A program made the position numbers and the translations under genes. Below are positions 3,125 to 14,043 of a stretch of DNA of 52,653 nucleotides, in pieces. The stretch covers positions 1 through 52,653 of the forward strand of contig QHSX01000072.1 in NCBI GenBank assembly GCA_003221695.1, read 5' to 3'. The notes beneath the pieces were generated by a model. The model ran no database searches. It saw only the letters and a program-made list of their open reading frames with translations, and had not been told where the DNA came from. Within the stretch, counting starts at the first letter, position 1. The number at the start of each line of letters is the position of its first letter. The stretch comes from Candidatus Rokuibacteriota bacterium. GTDB lineage: Bacteria > Methylomirabilota > Methylomirabilia > Rokubacteriales > CSP1-6.

Positions 3125-4741
3125 CTAGGAGCCACCCCGCCGCGCCAGAACCGAGACGAGGTGCTCGTTTCCGCTGGCGACGAAGTAGGCGGTACCGACG
3201 ATCATGACGAGGCCAATGAGGGCGGCGCTGGCGGCGAGTCGCGCGCGCCACTGGCTTCGGCGGCGGTCGGTCCGGGTGATGATCCGCGGAATACTGACCA
3301 GCACCGGCACGGTACTGAACGCCCGGAGATCGTCGACCGTGTGGAAGGACGTGTCGACGCGCTCGGCCACGACCACGGCGCCGACGGCCAGGCCGAGCGA
3401 TCCCATCAGAGCCATGAGGAGCAACCGGAACCGGTTGGGCGCGGCCGGCTCAGAGTTCGGGATCGCCGGGTCGAGCACGCGAAACTGTTCGCCCTTCTGG
3501 CGCTGCTCCATGCTCTCGGCGAGCTGGGCCTCCTCGTAGCGCTTCAACAGCGAGCTGTAGAGCTCGCGGGTGCTTTCGTAGTCGCGGGAGAGCTCCCTGA
3601 ACTCCTGTTCCCGTCGCGGCACGTTCTCCACCCGGCCCTGATAGGCGGCGATCCCGTCTCGAAGCCGGCGTTCCTCGCCCTTGAGAACCTTGATGTCCGT
3701 CTCCGCCTCGCTCAGGGCCTCTTTCAGGCGGAGCACATACGGCGTGAGGGGGGTGACCGGCGGAGTCGCCGGGTTCTCTTCCGGTTTGAGCTCGTGGGCC
3801 TTGGCATCAGCGACCTCGCGCTCGAGCGCGGTCACCTCCGCGGCCAGCAGGACGACGTCCGGGTACTTCGCGCTGAACTGAGTGCGGAGCCGTGTCAGCT
3901 CTTGCTTCAACCGGGCCAAGCGGGCCTCGGAGGTTTCGCGCGGGGCTCCTGGCCCGCCCGGCGCCGCTGCCGCGGCGACCAGGAGGGAATCGGCTTCGGC
4001 GAGCTGACTCGACAACGCCTGCCGGCGCTCCGAGGCTCGCGTCTGACTGTCGGCGTTCAGGCGAAGCTGCGCGTGGAGCCGTTCGAGGGTGGCGAGGTTG
4101 GCCTCCATCTGCTGGGGCAGCTCGCCCAGGTGGCGCCGCTTGAACTCGCTCACCCGTTGCTCATGAATGTCGAGCCGCTTCTTCGTTTCCTCGAGCTGGA
4201 CCTTGAGAAACTCCGCGGTGCCGGTCGCCTGACGCCCACGCGCCTTCAAGTCCTCCTCGATGTAGAAGGACGCGAGGGTATTGGTGACGAGCGAGACCGT
4301 GGCCGGCTCATTGCCCTGATAACTGATCGTGAAGGCCACCGTGGCCTCGCGCTGACCTCTGGCCTCGACCCCCTTGAGCTCGAGCTTGATGTCCCCGCGC
4401 ATGCGCTTGATGACTTCCTCGGATGGGGCCTGCGTCCACAGATCGGGGTAGAGGGCGAAGCGGGTGATCAGGGCTTCCAGTCGCGAGCGGCTCAGGATCT
4501 CCTGGCTGATCGTCTGGAGCCGGGTCTCGAGGGCACTGGTCACGGTGGACCGCACGAAGGTCTCGGGGATCTGCTGGCGGTCCACCAGGACCGTGGCCGT
4601 GGACCGATACAGGTTCGGGAGAAAGGTGATGAGACTGGCGGCGGCCGCCATGGGGGCGGCGAACGCCAGGATCGCCAGCCACTTGCGCCGGCTCCAGACG
4701 GCCAGCACCCCGTCCAGGTCTTTCCGTGTCTCGTCCGCCAT
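3125..4741 (-). CDS. Wzz/GumC-family polysaccharide chain-length determinant protein
   Basis: This 538-residue inner-membrane polysaccharide co-polymerase has an N-terminal membrane helix (WLAILAFAAPMAAAASLITF, about residues 17-36). A long periplasmic coiled-coil region follows, rich in Leu, Glu, Arg and Ala (about 170-400). The classic Wzz tail is FRVLDPAIPNSEPAAPNRF before a second membrane helix (about 435-455). A third hydrophobic stretch near the end (LIGLVMIVGTAYFVAS) is consistent with the XrtA-associated subgroup. There is no kinase domain; the tyrosine kinase is a separate downstream gene, as in Gram-negative XrtA clusters. It lies 9 bp downstream of the export gene and 10 bp upstream of the ExeA-like ATPase, so it is in the same operon. 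Confidence 0.9.
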   Translation of the reverse strand: MADETRKDLDGVLAVWSRRKWLAILAFAAPMAAAASLITFLPNLYRSTATVLVDRQQIPETFVRSTVTSALETRLQTISQEILSRSRLEALITRFALYPDLWTQAPSEEVIKRMRGDIKLELKGVEARGQREATVAFTISYQGNEPATVSLVTNTLASFYIEEDLKARGRQATGTAEFLKVQLEETKKRLDIHEQRVSEFKRRHLGELPQQMEANLATLERLHAQLRLNADSQTRASERRQALSSQLAEADSLLVAAAAAPGGPGAPRETSEARLARLKQELTRLRTQFSAKYPDVVLLAAEVTALEREVADAKAHELKPEENPATPPVTPLTPYVLRLKEALSEAETDIKVLKGEERRLRDGIAAYQGRVENVPRREQEFRELSRDYESTRELYSSLLKRYEEAQLAESMEQRQKGEQFRVLDPAIPNSEPAAPNRFRLLLMALMGSLGLAVGAVVVAERVDTSFHTVDDLRAFSTVPVLVSIPRIITRTDRRRSQWRARLAASAALIGLVMIVGTAYFVASGNEHLVSVLARRGGS

Positions 4742-4750
4742 CGGTGAGCC

Positions 4751-5370
4751 TTACGGCACCAGGACGATGTCGCCGTTCCGGAGGTAGAAGTTCTCCTGCT
4801 CTCCGGCCAGCTTGTTGTAGTTGAAGGGAATCCGCTTCATCGTCGTTCTCTCGGGACGAAGAATGACGATCCTCGAGCGCGTGGCGAACTGGGTGAACCC
4901 CCCGGCCAGGGCGAGGACGTCCAGCACGGTCGTCCAGCTCTTGAGCTCGAAGCGCCCCGGGTGGACGACTTCGCCCATGACCGACACTTTGAAGCTCCGG
5001 ACGTCGGACACGATCACGGAGACCTCCGGGCTCGGGATGTACTCCGTGAGCTTCTGTACGAGGTCATCGCGGAGCTCGAGCGCGGTGCGCCCCGCGGCCT
5101 GCACGTCGTTCACGAGGGGGAGCGAGATCTTGCCATCCGGCCTCACGGGCACCGTCCGGGTCAGCGCGTCGTTCTTCCAGACGGAGACCTGCAGCATGTC
5201 CTCGGGCCCGATCCGGTAGACGTCGGGCGCGACGACGCCATTGCCGTCGCGCGCCGACGCATCGACCGCCGGCGCCTGGGCGTCGGCCGGGTCGGCAGTC
5301 ATCCAGGCGGAGACGAGGACCGCGCCGGCAAGGAGCGGGTAGACCAGCGAGCGCTTCGTCACGGGGTGCC

Positions 5371-5374
<4 letters not shown>
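4751..5374 (-). CDS. Periplasmic/outer-membrane polysaccharide export protein (Wza/GumB-like)
   Basis: The 207-residue protein has an N-terminal signal peptide (LLAGAVLVSAWMTADPADAQA). The Poly_export domain begins YRIGPEDMLQVSVW and includes RPDGKISLPLVNDVQAAG. A SLBB domain follows (VSVMGEVVHPGRFELKSWTTVLDVLALAGG). No lipobox cysteine is visible, unlike Wza, so the anchoring differs or the protein is periplasmic. It would form the export channel or its periplasmic part together with the Wzz-like protein. The start is GTG, overlapping the regulator stop codon by 4 bp (GTGA), so regulator and structural genes are translationally coupled. Confidence 0.9.
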
Positions 5375-6756
<1,382 letters not shown>

Positions 6757-6776
6757 CTCGAGGCGGGGGACCGAAG

Positions 6777-6792
6777 CGCAAGTGCCGTACCA
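6777..6792 (-). promoter_or_regulatory. Sigma-54 (-24/-12) promoter for the EPS regulator operon
   Basis: Read on the minus strand the site is TGGTACGGCACTTGCG. It matches TGGCACG-N4-TTGC with one mismatch and has the strict GG-N10-GC spacing (GG at 6791-6790, GC at 6779-6778). Transcription would begin near 6766, about 10 bases before the regulator ATG at 6756, giving a very short leader. The first gene is itself a sigma-54 activator, so positive autoregulation is the natural inference. Confidence 0.75.
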
Positions 6793-6904
6793 AGAGTTCT
6801 TCAGAGCACGCGCGGGCTAGATAGTACGGATCTTTCATAGAAATCTTGTCCGATGCTCATGCAACGAGGTTCACAACGGCGGCCGCCAATGGGTAGTCCG
6901 GGAC

Positions 6905-6935
6905 TGTGTATGAAATTATCTACACTTTCCGGAAA
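6905..6935. promoter_or_regulatory. Paired dyad symmetries, candidate enhancer sites for the EPS regulator
   Basis: TGTA (6907-6910) and TACA (6921-6924) flank a central AATT, giving an 18-bp dyad TGTA-N3-AATT-N3-TACA. A perfect 10-bp palindrome TTTCCGGAAA follows at 6926-6935. The pair lies roughly 140-170 bp upstream of the expected start of the sigma-54 promoter, the usual distance for enhancer-binding protein sites. Assignment to the adjacent PrsR-like protein is inference from position. Confidence 0.45.
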
Positions 6936-7199
6936 CCCTTTAGAGTTAGGACTATGGAACTACGATGTGAAAGTAGATGCGCATCATTCGTGGCGTTTCC
7001 TGAGGGGAGCCTTGATGAGCCTTGTGATCAGAGGCGCGTGGTTCGTCGGGGCGAGCGTCCCGCGATATCTGGCCGCCCGCACCGCGCGCGAAGTGCTGCG
7101 ATAGGACTACTGGGGGGGCTCGCGCGAGCCTTCCGCCCTGGCATAGCGCGGCTTACGAGACCGGGGTTGTGGGCTCAATAAACGGGCGGGGAAACCTCC

Positions 7200-7240
7200 G
7201 ATCCGCTCTATAATCGAGCCTCACGGTGCTCAAGCGGATC
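7200..7240 (+). promoter_or_regulatory. Candidate -10 element inside an 8-bp inverted repeat, upstream of the barrel gene
   Basis: TATAAT (7209-7214) is a perfect -10 hexamer. It is bracketed by a perfect 8-bp inverted repeat, GATCCGCT (7200-7207) and AGCGGATC (7233-7240). The right arm ends only 8 bp before the GTG start at 7249, so it also covers the ribosome-binding region. No good -35 hexamer is seen at 16-18 bp spacing. The arrangement suggests an operator or RNA hairpin that could block both initiation and ribosome access. Confidence 0.4.
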
Positions 7241-7248
7241 CCAGTCCC

Positions 7249-8634
7249 GTGAGCTTCACCAAGGGGCACGTGGGTAGGTCGGTGCTCGCTTGGCCCTGGC
7301 CAGTCGGCACGGGCGGGGGCGCGATCGTTGGGATCGCCCTCTGTTTGATGACGGCCCACGCGTGGGGCCAAGAAGGTCCGCGTGCCGGCGGGAGAGAGCA
7401 GCCACCGGCGACTGAGCCCGCTCCATTTCCACCAAGCCCCGGCCCGCCGATTGGGGCGTATCCACTCGAGCTCTTGGGGCTCCTGGCGCCTCCTGCCCAA
7501 CGCGGACCGGTCACGCTAACGCCCTCGATCTCCGTGTCCGAGGAGTACAACGACAACCTCTTTTTCGACAACCGGAATCGCCAATGGGATCTCATCACGG
7601 GCCTGAGCCCGGCCCTGACGCTCTTCGTCACCCGCTCTTCGTATCAGCTGAGCGGCGGGTATTCGTTCACCGCCGAAATGTACGATCGGAACACCCGTCT
7701 CAACAATGCCCTCGAGCATCAGAATTTTGTCGCCAGCGGCCTCTACCGGGCGATGCCAGGATTGACGCTGACGGCCTCTGACGCATACACGTTGGATCGC
7801 AGCACAAATCGCCTCGCGACGCAGGGCTTTGCCACCGGCCGGCAGGAATCGTGGAGTAATACTTTCGCACCTGGCTTGACCTGGCAGATGACGCCCCTGA
7901 CCTCTCTGAATCTCGGCGCGACCTACAGCATTCTACGTTTCAAAGGGGCAGGGGCCGAAGGTGTAGGTACAGGTGCAGGTACAGGTACAGGTAGCGGGAT
8001 GGACTCAGATACCTACGGGTTTTCGACCACGCTCGGTCATGTGCTCACGCCCCGCCTCACCGGCCTCATCGGCTATGGCTTCACGTACCTGGATGTTCGC
8101 GGGGAGGAAAGCTCGCGGACTCATACCCCCACGCTGGGTGGCAGCTACCGTTTCACGCCGTCGCTCACCGGAACCGTCAGTGGTGGCCCGGCCATTACCG
8201 AGCTCGGGCGCCAGACGATCATGTCTCCCGCCGGCACCGCGAGTCTCGTCCAGCTTTTACGAACCGGCTCGGCCAGCGTCCAATACACTCGGGCGGTGAG
8301 TGCCGCAGGTGGATTAGGTGGGACGACCGACTCCCAGTCCGCTTCAGGCACGCTCACGCTTTCGACCTGGCAGCGCGGCTTGCTCATCGTGGTTAATCCT
8401 GTGTACAGCATCGCGGAGTCCGTGAGCAGCCGGCAGACCGACCGCATCGACGTCAAGTCGATCACACTGACCCTCGGCGTGACCTATCAACTCGCTCGTT
8501 ATGTGAGCCTCTTTGGAGGGTACACGTTGTTTCAGCAGCGCACCGGCACCACGTCGTCGTCGGGCCAGGCCGACGCGGATCAAAACCGAGTCAGGTTCGG
8601 TCTGCAGTTCGGGTATCCGATCAACTTCGACTGA
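7249..8634 (+). CDS. Outer-membrane beta-barrel protein (PEP-CTERM/XrtA-cluster associated type)
   Basis: The 461-residue protein starts with GTG and has a long signal peptide ending near AHAWGQEGPRAG. A proline-rich linker follows, then repeated amphipathic strands with alternating aromatic and polar residues (VSEEYNDNLFFDNRN, QLSGGYSFTAEMYDRNT, RYVSLFGGYTLFQQRTG). It ends VRFGLQFGYPINFD, a typical terminal barrel strand with final aromatic residue. The phrase 'SVSEEYNDNLFFD' is common in putative outer-membrane proteins of exosortase EPS clusters, so it is likely the outer-membrane component working with the divergent EPS operon. A Gly-Thr repeat lies in one loop (7960-7995). The precise role, porin or export, is unknown. 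Confidence 0.75.
   Translation: MSFTKGHVGRSVLAWPWPVGTGGGAIVGIALCLMTAHAWGQEGPRAGGREQPPATEPAPFPPSPGPPIGAYPLELLGLLAPPAQRGPVTLTPSISVSEEYNDNLFFDNRNRQWDLITGLSPALTLFVTRSSYQLSGGYSFTAEMYDRNTRLNNALEHQNFVASGLYRAMPGLTLTASDAYTLDRSTNRLATQGFATGRQESWSNTFAPGLTWQMTPLTSLNLGATYSILRFKGAGAEGVGTGAGTGTGSGMDSDTYGFSTTLGHVLTPRLTGLIGYGFTYLDVRGEESSRTHTPTLGGSYRFTPSLTGTVSGGPAITELGRQTIMSPAGTASLVQLLRTGSASVQYTRAVSAAGGLGGTTDSQSASGTLTLSTWQRGLLIVVNPVYSIAESVSSRQTDRIDVKSITLTLGVTYQLARYVSLFGGYTLFQQRTGTTSSSGQADADQNRVRFGLQFGYPINFD
7960..7995 (+). repeat. In-frame hexanucleotide repeat in the barrel gene
   Basis: Six tandem hexamers of the form GGTNNN are present (GGTGTA, GGTACA, GGTGCA, GGTACA, GGTACA, GGTAGC). They encode alternating Gly and Val/Thr/Ala/Ser. 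Gain or loss of a unit changes two residues without a frameshift. The position between barrel strands suggests a surface or periplasmic loop of variable length. Confidence 0.7.
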
Positions 8635-8940
8635 CCCCCTCGAGCCGTGTCCGGGGGTTTGCGCCGTTGCGTTTACCCACATTTCCACCGTTGTCCACAA
8701 TCGAAAATTTGGACGGTCCGACGCGCTCTCGCGACGACGCCGTTGAGAATCGCCCCGGGGTGCCTGCGTTGGATGGACGGCCCCTTCAGATTGCCTGGTG
8801 AAAGGGCGCGCTACGCGTTCGGTGCATCGGCAACGCCAGACTTGATAGGGGGAAATGGCGACTGGGGCGGGAAAAAAACGAATTGACGAGGAATTAAAGA
8901 TCGCCTACGCTCCACCCCGATCTCGCAGGAGGATACGAAG
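8635..8940 (+). other. Intergenic region upstream of the degenerate AAA+ gene
   Basis: This 306-bp gap contains no recognisable gene. Its 3' end carries the promoter and ribosome binding site described at 8883-8932. The remainder includes an AT-richer patch near 8695-8720 (AATCGAAAATTTGGAC). I see no convincing RNA gene or terminator. Confidence 0.5.
8883..8932 (+). promoter_or_regulatory. Sigma-70-like promoter and ribosome binding site
   Basis: TTGACG (8883-8888) and TACGCT (8906-8911) are separated by exactly 17 bp, a plausible -35/-10 pair. A perfect Shine-Dalgarno AGGAGG (8927-8932) lies 8 bp before the ATG at 8941. It suggests the degenerate AAA+ gene is expressed on its own housekeeping-type promoter, unlike the sigma-54-driven EPS operon. 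Confidence 0.55.
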
Positions 8941-9681
8941 ATGTCCGCCGGAGACGCGACGATCGAGTGCGCACCGACCGTCCTAAAGACGCCCCGGGTC
9001 CTTGACCTCGTGGCGGCAGGACAGCGTGCGGACCATCGAGTGCCTCTCCTGATCAGAGGCGAGCGCGGCGCCGGTAAGGACATCGTGGCACGGCTCATCC
9101 ACGCTGCCTCAGCACGCCAGCCCCATTCCTTCGTGAAGATGAATTGCGCGGTTCAACCCGCTGACCGGAGCGAGGCCGACTTATTTGGCCTGGAGAGAGG
9201 GACCTCCCCTCTGGCGAGCCGGCGGCGCCTCGGGAGCTTCGAGTTCGCGAACCACGGCACGATCTACCTGGACGAGATCGGGGCTCTCCCGAGCGCCGTG
9301 GCCCCCAAGCTTCTTCACGTGCTGCGGACGGGGGAGGTCTCGCGCACCGGCGGCCGCGAGATCATCCGGATCGACGTCCGCGTCATCGCCTCCACGGGAC
9401 AGAGCGCGGACATTGGGCGCGACGACTATCTCTGGAAGGAATTGCAGGCTCTCAAGATGGTCGAGATTTGTGTCCCTCCGCTCAGGCAGCGAACGGAAGA
9501 GATTCCCGTCTTCGCGTCATTTTTCCTGGAGCAATTCAACCGTCGGTACCGACGGGACGTCCAGCTCTGCGCTGACGAGCTTGCCGCGCTCATGGCCCGC
9601 TCATGGCCGGGGAATATTCGCGAACTCGAGGACGCGGTTCACCGGCTCGTCGTCGGTGGGGCGCCGTCTCCTTCCCATTAG
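8941..9681 (+). CDS. Degenerate sigma-54 activator AAA+ domain protein (no receiver, no DNA-binding domain)
   Basis: The 246-residue protein is an isolated AAA+ domain of the sigma-54 activator family. Walker A (GERGAGKD) and Walker B (GTIYLDEIGAL) are retained, so nucleotide binding is likely. The GAFTGA loop that contacts sigma-54 is replaced by GTSPLA, the sensor-1 Asn is lost (RVIASTGQS), and both Arg fingers are missing (YLWKELQAL where active members have FRADLYYRL). There is no N-terminal receiver and no C-terminal helix-turn-helix; the stop follows RELEDAVHRLVVGG. It probably cannot activate transcription. It could bind the PrsR-like protein and poison or tune its hexamer, or be a decaying gene. 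The strong ribosome binding site and uninterrupted frame favour function. Confidence 0.75.
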   Translation: MSAGDATIECAPTVLKTPRVLDLVAAGQRADHRVPLLIRGERGAGKDIVARLIHAASARQPHSFVKMNCAVQPADRSEADLFGLERGTSPLASRRRLGSFEFANHGTIYLDEIGALPSAVAPKLLHVLRTGEVSRTGGREIIRIDVRVIASTGQSADIGRDDYLWKELQALKMVEICVPPLRQRTEEIPVFASFFLEQFNRRYRRDVQLCADELAALMARSWPGNIRELEDAVHRLVVGGAPSPSH

Positions 9682-9859
9682 CCGGTTCGAGCGCGACGCC
9701 TCGACCCCCTGGCGGTGCTTCCCGAATTCCGCACCATCCGTTTAAGGGACTCACCTTGATGTTCGCGCAGGCGTCGAGGCAGAATATGGCGAGCCGGGGC
9801 GCTGCCAGCCGCGGAGGAGGTCGACGATGATCGCTCGCGCTCGCTCGCAGGTGACCTAG

Positions 9860-10354
9860 ATGGCCTCCTGGGACTTCAGGCCCCACGGTACCATCGTCGA
9901 CGGGGAAACTTTTGCCTGTGTCACTGAGCTCCAGATGCGTCAGGCCGCTCGCTTGCAGTACGCGGTCTCCATGCTGACAATTCACCAGAGCGGCAACGGG
10001 TATGTCGCCGATCCTGGCGACGGGGCTCAAGAGCTTGCGGAGGTGGTGAGTCCTCTGATTCGAGACACCGATCTCATCGAGGCCGTGCCGGCCGCCGGGA
10101 CGGTTCGAGTCCTGCTCGTTGGCGGAGAGCTGGAGGACCTCGACATCATCATTCGACGCATTATCACGGAAGTCAGCCACCACCGGTTCGACGAGCGGCA
10201 CGCGCTTGTCGTGCGCATTGGTGGGAGCTGTTTTCCCGCCACGGCAGGGAACTCCCGAGACCTCAAGCGTCAGGCCGACACCCTGGCGGAAGAGGCCCGT
10301 CGAGAGCAGGGCGCCTATTCGACGTATCGGCTTCGCACGCGCTCGGAGACCTGA
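9860..10354 (+). CDS. Small protein with degenerate GGDEF-like fold
   Basis: This 164-residue cytoplasmic protein follows the secondary-structure order of a GGDEF domain. A first strand (AVSMLTIHQSGNG) precedes a helix (AQELAEVVSPLIRDTDLIEAV), then comes a strand region where the GGDEF signature should be but reads PAAGTVRVLLVGG. A further helix (LDIIIRRIITEVSHH) and a final strand-helix (LVVRIGGSCFPATAGNSRDLKRQADTLAEEAR) resemble the SIGVA...ADxALYxAK tail. Metal-binding and catalytic residues are absent, so diguanylate cyclase activity is not expected; nucleotide sensing or a scaffold role is possible. It lies 178 bp after the degenerate AAA+ gene on the same strand and ends 8 bp from the convergent pseudokinase gene. 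The fold assignment is from pattern only. Confidence 0.5.
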   Translation: MASWDFRPHGTIVDGETFACVTELQMRQAARLQYAVSMLTIHQSGNGYVADPGDGAQELAEVVSPLIRDTDLIEAVPAAGTVRVLLVGGELEDLDIIIRRIITEVSHHRFDERHALVVRIGGSCFPATAGNSRDLKRQADTLAEEARREQGAYSTYRLRTRSET

Positions 10355-10362
10355 TCGAGCGT

Positions 10363-11856
10363 CTACTTGCCGCGCTCGGCGGAGTGCTTCAGCAGCCAGT
10401 CGATGACGGCGCTGGGATCGTAAGCCTCCACCTCGCTCGACGAAGGTGAGCCCTCACGAACGGCGCCTGCGGGCGCCTGCTGCACTCGTTGAGGCTGTCG
10501 GCGCTCTGCGCTGGGTGGGCCTGACGCCGGCGGGGCCGCGGACGGCGGCGTCGCTTTGGCGGCGGGCTGCGGGGCTGACGCGGGTGGGGGCGCGGACGGC
10601 CGCGCGGAGCGCGTAGCCGGCGGCACGACCGCTGACGTGGCCGGGGGGGCGACCGGGGCCGCGGTCCGTGTCTCTGTGACGGGGGCACCCGCGGGGGTGC
10701 TCGATACCGGCGGGGCGCCCACCGTCGCTTGCTGGGTTGCCGGCGCCGGCCGCGCTGGCGGCAGCGCCGTTTGCGGTGGCATCGTCGGCTGCGCGAGCGA
10801 CGCCGGGGGCTCTCGATCCGCCGACGGCGCCGTCGGGGATTGCGCCGACGGGCGTGGCGCCAACAGGCGCGACCCCATCAGGCTCCAGACAACGATCGCT
10901 GCGATCGACGCCGTGACGATTATGCCACCCACGACCGCGGCCTTCCGCTTCCACCGCCTCACCGGTCCGTGCGCCTCCGCCCACAGGCGGTTCAGGACGT
11001 CCTGCATGAGAGGCCGCAGCTCCGGCTGCTTGTAGAGCGCGAGCGCGACCGCGGACTCGACCGAGGCGGGAATGGCGCGCCGTCGCCGGCGCATCGGGGT
11101 CGGCGTCTCCGTCAGCTGCTTCGAGAGGACGGCATCGCGCGTGGGCGCCTGGAACGGCGGCACCCCGCAGAGCATCTCGTAGAGGATGACGCCAAACGCG
11201 TAGATGTCCGTCTTCTCGGTCGCCGGGGCCCGGCGGATCTGCTCGGGCGAGAGGTACTCCGCCGGCGGCTCAGCGGCGAGGAGGCCCTCGTTCGCCTGGG
11301 CGTCACGCAGGCCGGCCAGCTCCAGGTCCATCAGCTTGACGCGCCCGTCCTCCAGGACCATCACGTTCGAGGGCCGGAGGGCGCCGTGGACGAGGCCCAT
11401 GTTATGCAGCGTCTCCACGGATCCACCGAGGTCGAGCGCCACGCGCAGCGCCTCGGGGATGTCGAGCGGTGTGCCCCCCGACAGCATCTCGCTCAGACGG
11501 CGGCCCGCGACGAGCTCCATCGCCACGAACGGCCGGCCGTTCTCGACCTCACCGAACTCGAGCACGCGGACCAGTCCCGGATGACTCGTCGATGCCGCGA
11601 CAATCGAGCGACCCATGCGCTGGATCGTCTGCGCGGCGTGAGGGCCGGCGAGCGCGCGGGGCAGAAACCGGATCGCGACCGGGTGGCCGGTCGCTTCGTC
11701 CTCGGCGGCACAGACGATCCCGAAGGCGCCGGCCCCCAGCTCGGTGACGATCCGGTAGCGGCCCTTGACGGAGAACCCGATGGGAGCGCGGTCGCCGGCC
11801 TCGACGGACGGCACGGCCGTGGGCCCCGTCGGGCTCTCGTTGACGTCTTTACTCAC
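10363..11856 (-). CDS. Membrane-anchored Ser/Thr protein kinase homologue, probably a pseudokinase
   Basis: This 497-residue protein has a kinase-like domain (about 25-290), one membrane helix (AAVVGGIIVTASIAAIVVWSL, about 313-333) and a long Pro/Ala/Thr-rich external region. The protein ends SEVEAYDPSAVIDWLLKHSAERGK. The Gly-rich loop is intact (ELGAGAFGIV) and APE-like and F-helix features remain (YLSPEQI, DIYAFGVILYEML). The beta-3 Lys is Arg (HPVAIRFLP), the HRD motif is HGA with the catalytic Asp lost (LVHGALRPSN), and DFG reads DLE. Catalysis is therefore unlikely; ATP binding and signalling by conformation are possible. Its start overlaps the TAXI gene stop by 8 bp, so a periplasmic binding protein and this transmembrane pseudokinase are probably co-translated. 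Confidence 0.85.
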   Translation of the reverse strand: MSKDVNESPTGPTAVPSVEAGDRAPIGFSVKGRYRIVTELGAGAFGIVCAAEDEATGHPVAIRFLPRALAGPHAAQTIQRMGRSIVAASTSHPGLVRVLEFGEVENGRPFVAMELVAGRRLSEMLSGGTPLDIPEALRVALDLGGSVETLHNMGLVHGALRPSNVMVLEDGRVKLMDLELAGLRDAQANEGLLAAEPPAEYLSPEQIRRAPATEKTDIYAFGVILYEMLCGVPPFQAPTRDAVLSKQLTETPTPMRRRRRAIPASVESAVALALYKQPELRPLMQDVLNRLWAEAHGPVRRWKRKAAVVGGIIVTASIAAIVVWSLMGSRLLAPRPSAQSPTAPSADREPPASLAQPTMPPQTALPPARPAPATQQATVGAPPVSSTPAGAPVTETRTAAPVAPPATSAVVPPATRSARPSAPPPASAPQPAAKATPPSAAPPASGPPSAERRQPQRVQQAPAGAVREGSPSSSEVEAYDPSAVIDWLLKHSAERGK

Positions 11857-12957: not shown

Positions 12958-14043
12958 CTACGGCGTCTCGGCTTCGGTCAGCGGCACACAGGCCTCCGGC
13001 GCCAGCGCGAGCGTCACCGTCTCGCCGGAGCGAAACACGGCGGGCGGGGGCGCGGTGACGCGCAGGGCCACGTCACTTCCGTTCACGCGGACCTGATAGT
13101 CCACGGCATCCCCGAGATAGCTCGCGCGCTGGACCACGCCGGCGAGGACATTGGGGTCGGGCGACGGGGGCTGGCCTCGTGCCACGAGCCGGATCTCGTG
13201 AGGACGGATCGAGACGACCACCGGGGCGCCGGGCTTGAGCCCGGTGACCGCGACGCGAAGCCGCAAGGCGCCGCGGGTGACGACGCCCGGCTCGGCCGCG
13301 ATGGCATCGACGAGGTTGGTCCTGCCGATGAACTCGGCGACGAACCGGGTCCGTGGATGTTGAAAGAGATCCTCCGCCGTCCCGACCTGGACGACGCGGC
13401 CTCGATGGAGCACGGCCACACGGTCGGAGATGACCATCGCCTCCGCCTGGTCGTGGGTCACGTAGAGGGTCGTGATCGCGAAAGTCTCGTGAAGCCGGCG
13501 GATCTCGAAGCGCATTTCTTCTCGCAGGTTTGCGTCGAGGTTGCTCAGAGGCTCGTCGAGGAGCAGGATCTCCGGCTCGACGACCAGGGCCCGCGCGACC
13601 GCGACCCGCTGCTGCTGGCCGCCTGAGAGCTCTCCCGGATAGCGCGAGCCGTAGCCATCGAGCTGGACGACCTTCAGCATCTCCTTGACGCGCGCCTCGC
13701 GCGCGGCCTTCGGCACGCCCGGCTTGAGGCGCAGGCCGTACGCGATGTTCTGTGCCACGGTCATGTGGGGCCAGAGCGCGTAGCTCTGGAAGATCATCGC
13801 CATCCGCCGCCGCTCGGGAGGGATCACGCGGGTCGGCGACGAGAGGCAGCGATCGCCGACCCAGATCTCGCCAGCCTCTGGCTGGAGGAACCCCGCGAGG
13901 AGGCGAAGGGTCGTCGTCTTGCCGCAGCCTGAGGGCCCGAGGAGCGAGACGAGCTCGCCGGGCTCCACCCGGAGGTCGAGCCCTTCGAGCGCGGCGACGT
14001 CGCCGTACCGCTTCGTCAGCCCCTTGATCGTCACGCCCGGCAT
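12958..14043 (-). CDS. ABC importer ATP-binding protein (FbpC/PotA type)
   Basis: The 361-residue ATPase has Walker A (GPSGCGKTTTLRLLAG), Q-loop (FQSYALWPHMTV), signature [15 protein letters not shown], Walker B ILLLDEPLSNLD and H-loop LYVTHDQAEAM. A C-terminal TOBE-type regulatory domain follows (about 240-361, with RPHEIRLVARG). It belongs to the MalK/PotA/FbpC branch, which energises uptake of iron, spermidine, 2-aminoethylphosphonate or similar. It is the last gene of the set binding protein - permease - ATPase, 10 bp after the permease. Substrate cannot be read from the ATPase; the MmgE/PrpD gene at the head of the operon hints at an organic acid. Confidence 0.92.
   Translation of the reverse strand: MPGVTIKGLTKRYGDVAALEGLDLRVEPGELVSLLGPSGCGKTTTLRLLAGFLQPEAGEIWVGDRCLSSPTRVIPPERRRMAMIFQSYALWPHMTVAQNIAYGLRLKPGVPKAAREARVKEMLKVVQLDGYGSRYPGELSGGQQQRVAVARALVVEPEILLLDEPLSNLDANLREEMRFEIRRLHETFAITTLYVTHDQAEAMVISDRVAVLHRGRVVQVGTAEDLFQHPRTRFVAEFIGRTNLVDAIAAEPGVVTRGALRLRVAVTGLKPGAPVVVSIRPHEIRLVARGQPPSPDPNVLAGVVQRASYLGDAVDYQVRVNGSDVALRVTAPPPAVFRSGETVTLALAPEACVPLTEAETP

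Follow-up and report, generated by a model that had tools for sequence, protein, structure and literature searches.

The 246-aa protein encoded at positions 8941–9681 (+ strand) of the analyzed DNA stretch of 52,653 nucleotides (the window) is a genuine and conserved AAA+ paralogue of sigma-54 activators, itself non-activating, while its nucleotide binding, its contacts and the direction of its effect are predicted. We consider it, with a probability of about 0.45, to be a paralogue of receiver-less sigma-54 activators that are probably coupled to c-di-GMP, and to modulate an intact activator and/or its receptor. This reading is built on direct observations, i.e., the fold, the kept and lost motifs, a single origin, purifying selection, kinship, and an adjoining partner of GGDEF fold with I-site residues.

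The short AAA+ protein and its motifs

The short protein was recognized in the ORF list as a stand-alone, degenerate sigma-54 activator domain, with the use of Pfam, AlphaFold2, and Foldseek. Pfam matches comprised Sigma54_activat (E 1.8e-36), AAA_lid_14 (E 4.5e-15), and two weaker AAA-type ones, and the score against PF00158 (125.8 bits, cut-off 20.2) identifies a sigma-54 activator-type AAA+ domain. With the AlphaFold2 model (mean pLDDT 84, pTM 0.82), the Foldseek matches listed were AAA+ domains of bEBPs, e.g., 1ny5 and 4qhs. Pfam found neither an HTH nor a receiver domain in this protein, which ends with the lid; beyond the lid, the other family copies carry no residues, except for two in one copy. 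Such an AAA+ domain on its own is an architecture of the FleT type.

The window copy retains Walker A (GERGAGKD, 9058–9081, + strand), Walker B (TIYLDEI), and sensor II (WPGNIREL), which agrees with the sequence-only reading, according to which the ATP-binding motifs are kept. Among the ten members of the family, Walker A and sensor II (WPxNxREL) are present in all, and Walker B occurs as Asp-Glu in only six and is eroded in four. The site of GAFTGA in loop 1 (9199–9216, + strand) reads GTSPLA in the window; this bEBP loop motif is found in none of the ten proteins, all of which have Pro in place of the loop Thr, and the sensor-I Asn, changed to Gly in the window copy, is missing from all ten as well. 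In the Arg-finger region (9418–9465, + strand), the motif alignment revealed LWKE--LQALK in place of FR(x)DLYYRLN, and hence the window copy has neither of the trans-acting Arg fingers of bEBPs. The proposed loss of GAFTGA, both Arg fingers and DNA binding holds for this copy, but not for the family as a whole, as Arg is left at the second finger position in half of the copies (L103, L050, L101, L051, and L054). The functional names of the Walker, sensor, finger and loop motifs are the customary ones, some of which are given in PMC7175178.

Judging from these residues, the short protein may bind ATP without powering remodelling; with the loop Thr replaced by Pro and the sensor-I Asn lost in 10/10 copies, it would be unable to remodel the sigma-54 holoenzyme, as had been proposed. 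Sigma-54 activators are ring-shaped motors. Having kept its cis elements (Walker A and sensor II), while the trans elements (Arg fingers and loop 1) are eroded, the protein would be an acceptor-only ring subunit and, for this reason, likelier to act as a brake than to activate.

A ribosome-binding site (AGGAGG, 8927–8932, + strand), read from the sequence, ends 8 nt before the ATG of the short gene and confirms the good ribosome site ascribed to it. The good promoter of its own, ascribed to the gene in the same place, was not recovered: a sigma-70 scan of positions 6700–10450 gave no sites (0.8 expected in shuffles). The sigma-54 promoter motif, searched for in the window with up to two mismatches, gave 22 matches vs 36 expected, which is no evidence overall; the only site with one mismatch (6778–6792, − strand) lies just upstream of the PrsR-like gene described below, not of the short gene. 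In some copies of the short gene, the start codon is missing at the homologous position.

Distribution, kinship, and genomic neighbourhood

Ten open copies of the short gene were found in eight of the 57 genomes of the host GTDB family, representing three genera. The nine copies other than that of the window show 60–74% identity to it and share its loop and sensor-I losses. Among the 47 loci indicated by a search of a genome-contig database, the short form occurs in five; each of these is titled Rokubacteria and coincides with a different copy already included in the ten. Orthologues with the same substitutions, to be sought beside exopolysaccharide clusters according to the sequence-only reading, do exist, but exopolysaccharide-type neighbours accompany only five of the ten loci, the others being situated near GroEL, RlpA or metabolic genes.

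In the 75-row tree, all ten short copies grouped together (100/100) on a long stem (1.38). The surrounding 24-row clade (100/99) further comprises twelve activators without a receiver and two with a fused PilZ. The short protein is most closely related to receiver-less activators, whose genes in most cases adjoin a homologue of ORF 9860–10354. Of the twelve, L099 and L104 were called receiver-less by Pfam, and the others by the N-terminal stretches of 22 to 116 residues preceding the AAA+ domain. From the tree, L160_2400 (a fragment of a split frame) and L051_4439 were omitted, and L007_1282, L008_1282, and L170_4831, called short at first by the score rule, were relabelled in it. The PrsR-like proteins fell into another clade, which rules out PrsR as the parent of the short protein.

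Pairwise dN/dS values (Nei–Gojobori) within the short family ranged from 0.21 to 0.50, with a median of 0.36 (45 pairs). In comparison, the median was 0.13 when the AAA+ domains of ten intact activators without a receiver were analyzed (45 pairs), and 0.10 for six PrsR-like proteins (15 pairs). The short gene is thus constrained, though less than its relatives, since its ratio, about three times that of the intact activators, indicates relaxed constraint. With 10/10 frames open and dN/dS of 0.21–0.50 in all 45 pairs, a recent pseudogene was ruled out. The earlier suggestion of a retained modulator unable to remodel the sigma-54 holoenzyme gains support from the ten open copies, their common clade and the values not exceeding 0.50 in 45/45 pairs.

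In the window, the XrtA-type exopolysaccharide chain-length determinant and export genes (3125–5374, − strand; NCBIfam TIGR03007 above the cut-off, TIGR03027 below it) are accompanied by a gene for a PrsR-like sigma-54 response regulator (5371–6756, − strand), which was characterized by Pfam, TIGR02915, the tree and the motif alignment and has intact GAFTGA and a Fis HTH. Its distance to the short gene is 2.2 kb, very close to the 2 kb given previously. Against TIGR02915 (PrsR; cut-off 502.6), both this protein (306.6 bits) and the short protein (176.3 bits) score below the threshold. The receiver domain of the PrsR-like protein may be degenerate, as its Pfam score is below the cut-off (24.7 vs 30.2). 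An outer-membrane beta-barrel gene (7249–8634, + strand; TIGR03016 E 1.3e-12, below the cut-off) lies upstream of the short gene.

Intact relatives at this locus had been named as the sign of a recent pseudogene. Two genomes, G030 and G067, do carry an intact receiver-less activator and a GGDEF-like gene in the stretch flanked by the PrsR-like gene and by an ABC ATPase (79–80% identical to that encoded at 12958–14043 of the window), where the window has the barrel gene, the short gene, the GGDEF-like gene, two more genes (one of them a Pfam protein kinase) and then the ATPase. The short gene, however, forms an old separate clade, and in G001 the short and intact genes stand side by side (permease, ATPase, short gene, intact activator), hence it is no recent pseudogene. 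As the gene order differs among the loci, they do not demonstrate that the gene was simply truncated where it stands; the origin of the short gene may lie in a duplication at the locus, after which one copy lost its function.

A sister activator was identified in six of the eight genomes with the short gene vs 15 of the 49 others (Fisher p 0.04), which is weak evidence of an association, since the carrier genomes are related and this is no clean test. Counting the contig-end fragment of G002 (82% identity), the only form in which its sister activator was found, the number rises to seven of eight. The window's genome (G000) carries an intact sister activator on contig C5, as well as rpoN and nine GGDEF-family matches. 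The search of G003 (96% complete, 440 contigs, two short genes) revealed no degenerate GGDEF partner and no close sister activator; perhaps one missing contig would remove both.

The degenerate GGDEF partner and its pairing with sigma-54 activators

The ORF at 9860–10354 (+ strand), starting 178 bp downstream of the short gene on the same strand, encodes a 164-aa degenerate GGDEF-fold protein, which is a predicted c-di-GMP receptor. Pfam gave no name to this partner (only its relative in L053 exceeded the GGDEF cut-off, 25.8 vs 23.8), and its identity was settled by profile search and fold comparison. The profile A2, built of 28 members, retrieved GGDEF domains from PDB (best E 1.5e-19). With the AlphaFold2 model (pLDDT 91, pTM 0.86), the matches listed by both Foldseek and VIA-align were also GGDEF domains, with the best Z of 19.5 for 6d9m and 4iob (rmsd 2.2–2.5, 147–148 aligned residues). 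PelD was not among the matches listed by either tool, which excludes nothing.

Profile A2, in which L110 (with an in-frame stop) is omitted, L061 is used only up to its stop and many rows begin at a frame edge, with no proven start, contains six invariant columns. Three of them (28/28 rows) are R68 and D71 of the RDTD motif (10061–10072, + strand) and R100 (10157–10159, + strand). They align with the I-site Arg-x-x-Asp and the later Arg of GGDEF structures, one of which is c-di-GMP-bound (3ign, HMMER-aligned with RDTD). The profile of the partner family gave 42 hits in 56 genomes, of which 38 lack the GG(D/E)EF motif and four are canonical; the window partner was counted as degenerate, the motif flagged in it by the pattern test (RIGGSCF) being false. 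The I-site triad is present in 37 of the 38 degenerate Rokubacterial members, that of the window included. Since the canonical hits also keep Arg-x-x-Asp (4/4; the second Arg in 2/4), the argument rests on the retention of the I-site after the loss of catalysis. On these residues, the partner may bind c-di-GMP through its I-site. In L102 (10044–10535), the partner copy lacks about 15 residues, in frame, behind the conserved glycine.

A homologue of the partner gene is localized directly 3' of the short gene, on the same strand, at four of the ten loci (window, L053, L101, and L102). It was not found beside the remaining six copies (the contig of L103 ends 940 bases downstream), and tblastn revealed no partner remnants downstream of them with a hit better than E 1.0. 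Regardless of the short gene, a sigma-54 AAA+ gene is situated no more than 1.5 kb away from 25 of the 38 degenerate members, if the split frames of L160 and L161 are taken as activators; at 3 kb, the number is 28. Both genes share a strand in 23 of the 25 pairs, and none of the four canonical hits is paired. The sister activators in L160 (G068:C310) and L161 (G028:C145) are apparently split over two frames or interrupted by a stop, and each adjoins an open GGDEF-like gene. The same pairing was observed at 16 of 42 further non-short loci, fetched through their activator. In Acidobacteriota, Myxococcota, and Nitrospirota, the degenerate GGDEF gene is situated directly beside sigma-54 activators, often two in tandem (L058, L060–L063, L065, L066, L068, L073–L076, L078–L080, and L082). 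Moreover, in three of four other kin examined (L025, L026, and L196, but not L195), a PilZ domain above the Pfam cut-off precedes the AAA+ domain; these three PilZ-fused activators carry a Fis HTH.

It is mainly because related activators have a predicted receptor in trans or in cis that we favor a role in c-di-GMP signaling. In the proposed mechanism, the activator family would be controlled by c-di-GMP through a separate degenerate-GGDEF receptor or a fused PilZ domain, and the short protein would contact the partner and/or enter or cap the rings of the intact sister activator. It would thereby lower or re-set the c-di-GMP response of sigma-54 promoters, probably those of exopolysaccharide genes. 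The short protein is probably a brake or an adaptor in a c-di-GMP-linked sigma-54 circuit, and, instead of directly switching genes on, the pair of the short gene and its partner probably fine-tunes polysaccharide production.

In G012 (L170, G012:C106, 2916–5808), the genes for an intact activator, a GGDEF-like protein and an independently degenerate activator-like protein follow one another on one strand. The degenerate activator, encoded 60 bp from the GGDEF-like gene, has Arg in place of the Walker A Lys, a changed Walker B and no GAFTGA, and it keeps its HTH. It belongs to a clade other than the short family, its exact place being unsure because of a long branch. This case points to a repeated origin of dead subunits next to a GGDEF-like protein of the partner type. 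A wider proposal, tentative and on balance somewhat unlikely, is that an undescribed c-di-GMP/sigma-54 switch exists in Rokubacteria (comparable gene pairs being seen in Acidobacteriota, Nitrospirota, and Myxococcota). In this switch, the in-trans c-di-GMP receptor of a sigma-54 activator would be a small GGDEF protein devoid of catalysis, exchangeable with an in-cis PilZ domain, and the switch would more than once have gained a dead AAA+ subunit (the short family and L170) as a built-in brake in mixed rings.

Known systems and alternative explanations

The short protein is known in kind, through the FleT-like architecture and c-di-GMP-linked activators. FleT of Rhodobacter (Cereibacter) sphaeroides is, in the available parts of PMC7175178 and PMC11999139, a lone activator AAA+ domain without regulatory or DNA-binding domains, which works in a hetero-oligomer with its DNA-binding paralogue FleQ, and FleQ/FleT activates flagellar promoters. 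The short protein is likewise an AAA+ domain alone. It lacks GAFTGA and Arg fingers and is linked to a GGDEF-like gene at 4/10 loci and to exopolysaccharide-type genes at 5/10. The intact sister activators resemble BerB of Burkholderia cenocepacia, described in the accessible text of PMC5552954 as a receiver-less sigma-54 activator which regulates exopolysaccharide, binds c-di-GMP and works with RpoN; BerB has GAFTGA and an HTH and binds c-di-GMP itself, whereas the short protein is devoid of GAFTGA and the predicted receptor is a separate GGDEF-like protein or PilZ. PelD, the c-di-GMP receptor of the Pel system, has a GGDEF-like fold without the GGDEF motif and, according to the part of PMC2170427 at hand, needs R367, D370, and R402 for c-di-GMP, to which R68, D71, and R100 of the partner correspond. 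Unlike PelD, the partner is a single domain of 164 aa, paired with sigma-54 activators outside any Pel polysaccharide system.

The regulators EpsI/Nla24, FleQ, and VpsR all have DNA-binding domains. They are NtrC-type regulators (EpsI/Nla24 that of Myxococcus xanthus) tied to c-di-GMP and exopolysaccharide, and in the available parts of PMC4877007 and PMC5552954 c-di-GMP is bound by the regulator itself, unlike the separate receptor predicted here. PrsR of the PEP-CTERM/exosortase clusters, an exopolysaccharide-linked sigma-54 response regulator in the part of PMC1569441 at hand, has intact domains and belongs to a clade other than the short protein. A literature search joining Rokubacteria, sigma-54, and c-di-GMP found nothing; one combining degenerate GGDEF, enhancer binding protein, exopolysaccharide, and c-di-GMP gave, by its listing, a match only in Vibrio, and among the matches listed for PilZ, sigma-54, GGDEF, and enhancer binding, no such pair appeared in titles or abstract starts. 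A subunit kept without the sigma-54 contact and the trans-catalytic residues is a natural experiment on the possible tuning of rings by dead subunits, and a degenerate GGDEF protein with a receiver-less activator (or a PilZ fusion) would connect c-di-GMP directly, and in a testable manner, with sigma-54-dependent exopolysaccharide control in soil phyla as yet uncultured.

The kept AAA+ fold and Walker A, together with the lost Arg fingers and loop 1, would also suit a ring poison acting without c-di-GMP, i.e., a subunit that would form mixed rings with an intact activator of the same clade and stop ATP from being hydrolysed at the adjacent interface; the GGDEF-like neighbour would then be incidental. 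Hetero-oligomers of paralogous activators are documented in the accessible part of PMC9542535, the sister activator occurs in most carrier genomes (6/8, or 7/8 with the G002 fragment), and in G001 the short gene directly adjoins it. We nevertheless judge this explanation unlikely, as it leaves unaccounted for the same-strand partner at 4/10 loci, and G003 yielded no close sister activator. Mixed rings with the adjoining PrsR-like activator, as put forward in the sequence-only reading, received no specific support and appear very unlikely: that gene is adjacent to the short one in the window, L052, and L054, but in only these three of the ten loci, and its product falls in another clade. Receiver-less activators paired with the degenerate GGDEF protein are the likelier partners.

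It is quite unlikely, in our opinion, that the short AAA+ and GGDEF-like proteins have abandoned transcription and form a sigma-54-independent nucleotide/c-di-GMP switch of their own, serving, e.g., polysaccharide export. The absence of DNA binding and of the sigma-54 loop in 10/10 copies and the close, one-strand arrangement of both genes at the four paired loci are in line with such a complex, yet no non-transcription neighbour is conserved across the ten loci. A duplicate that is slowly decaying and has residual function at most might be seen in the dN/dS exceeding that of intact relatives, in the copies without a start codon at the homologous position and in the Walker B eroded in 4/10; this is highly improbable, given that all ten frames are open with dN/dS of 0.21–0.50 in 45 pairs, and that Walker A, sensor II and the new loop Pro are invariant. 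A defence-system reading was rejected, as the PADLOC matches fall on the AAA+ part of RtcR-type regulators, and the neighbouring kinase accounts for those to kinase models.
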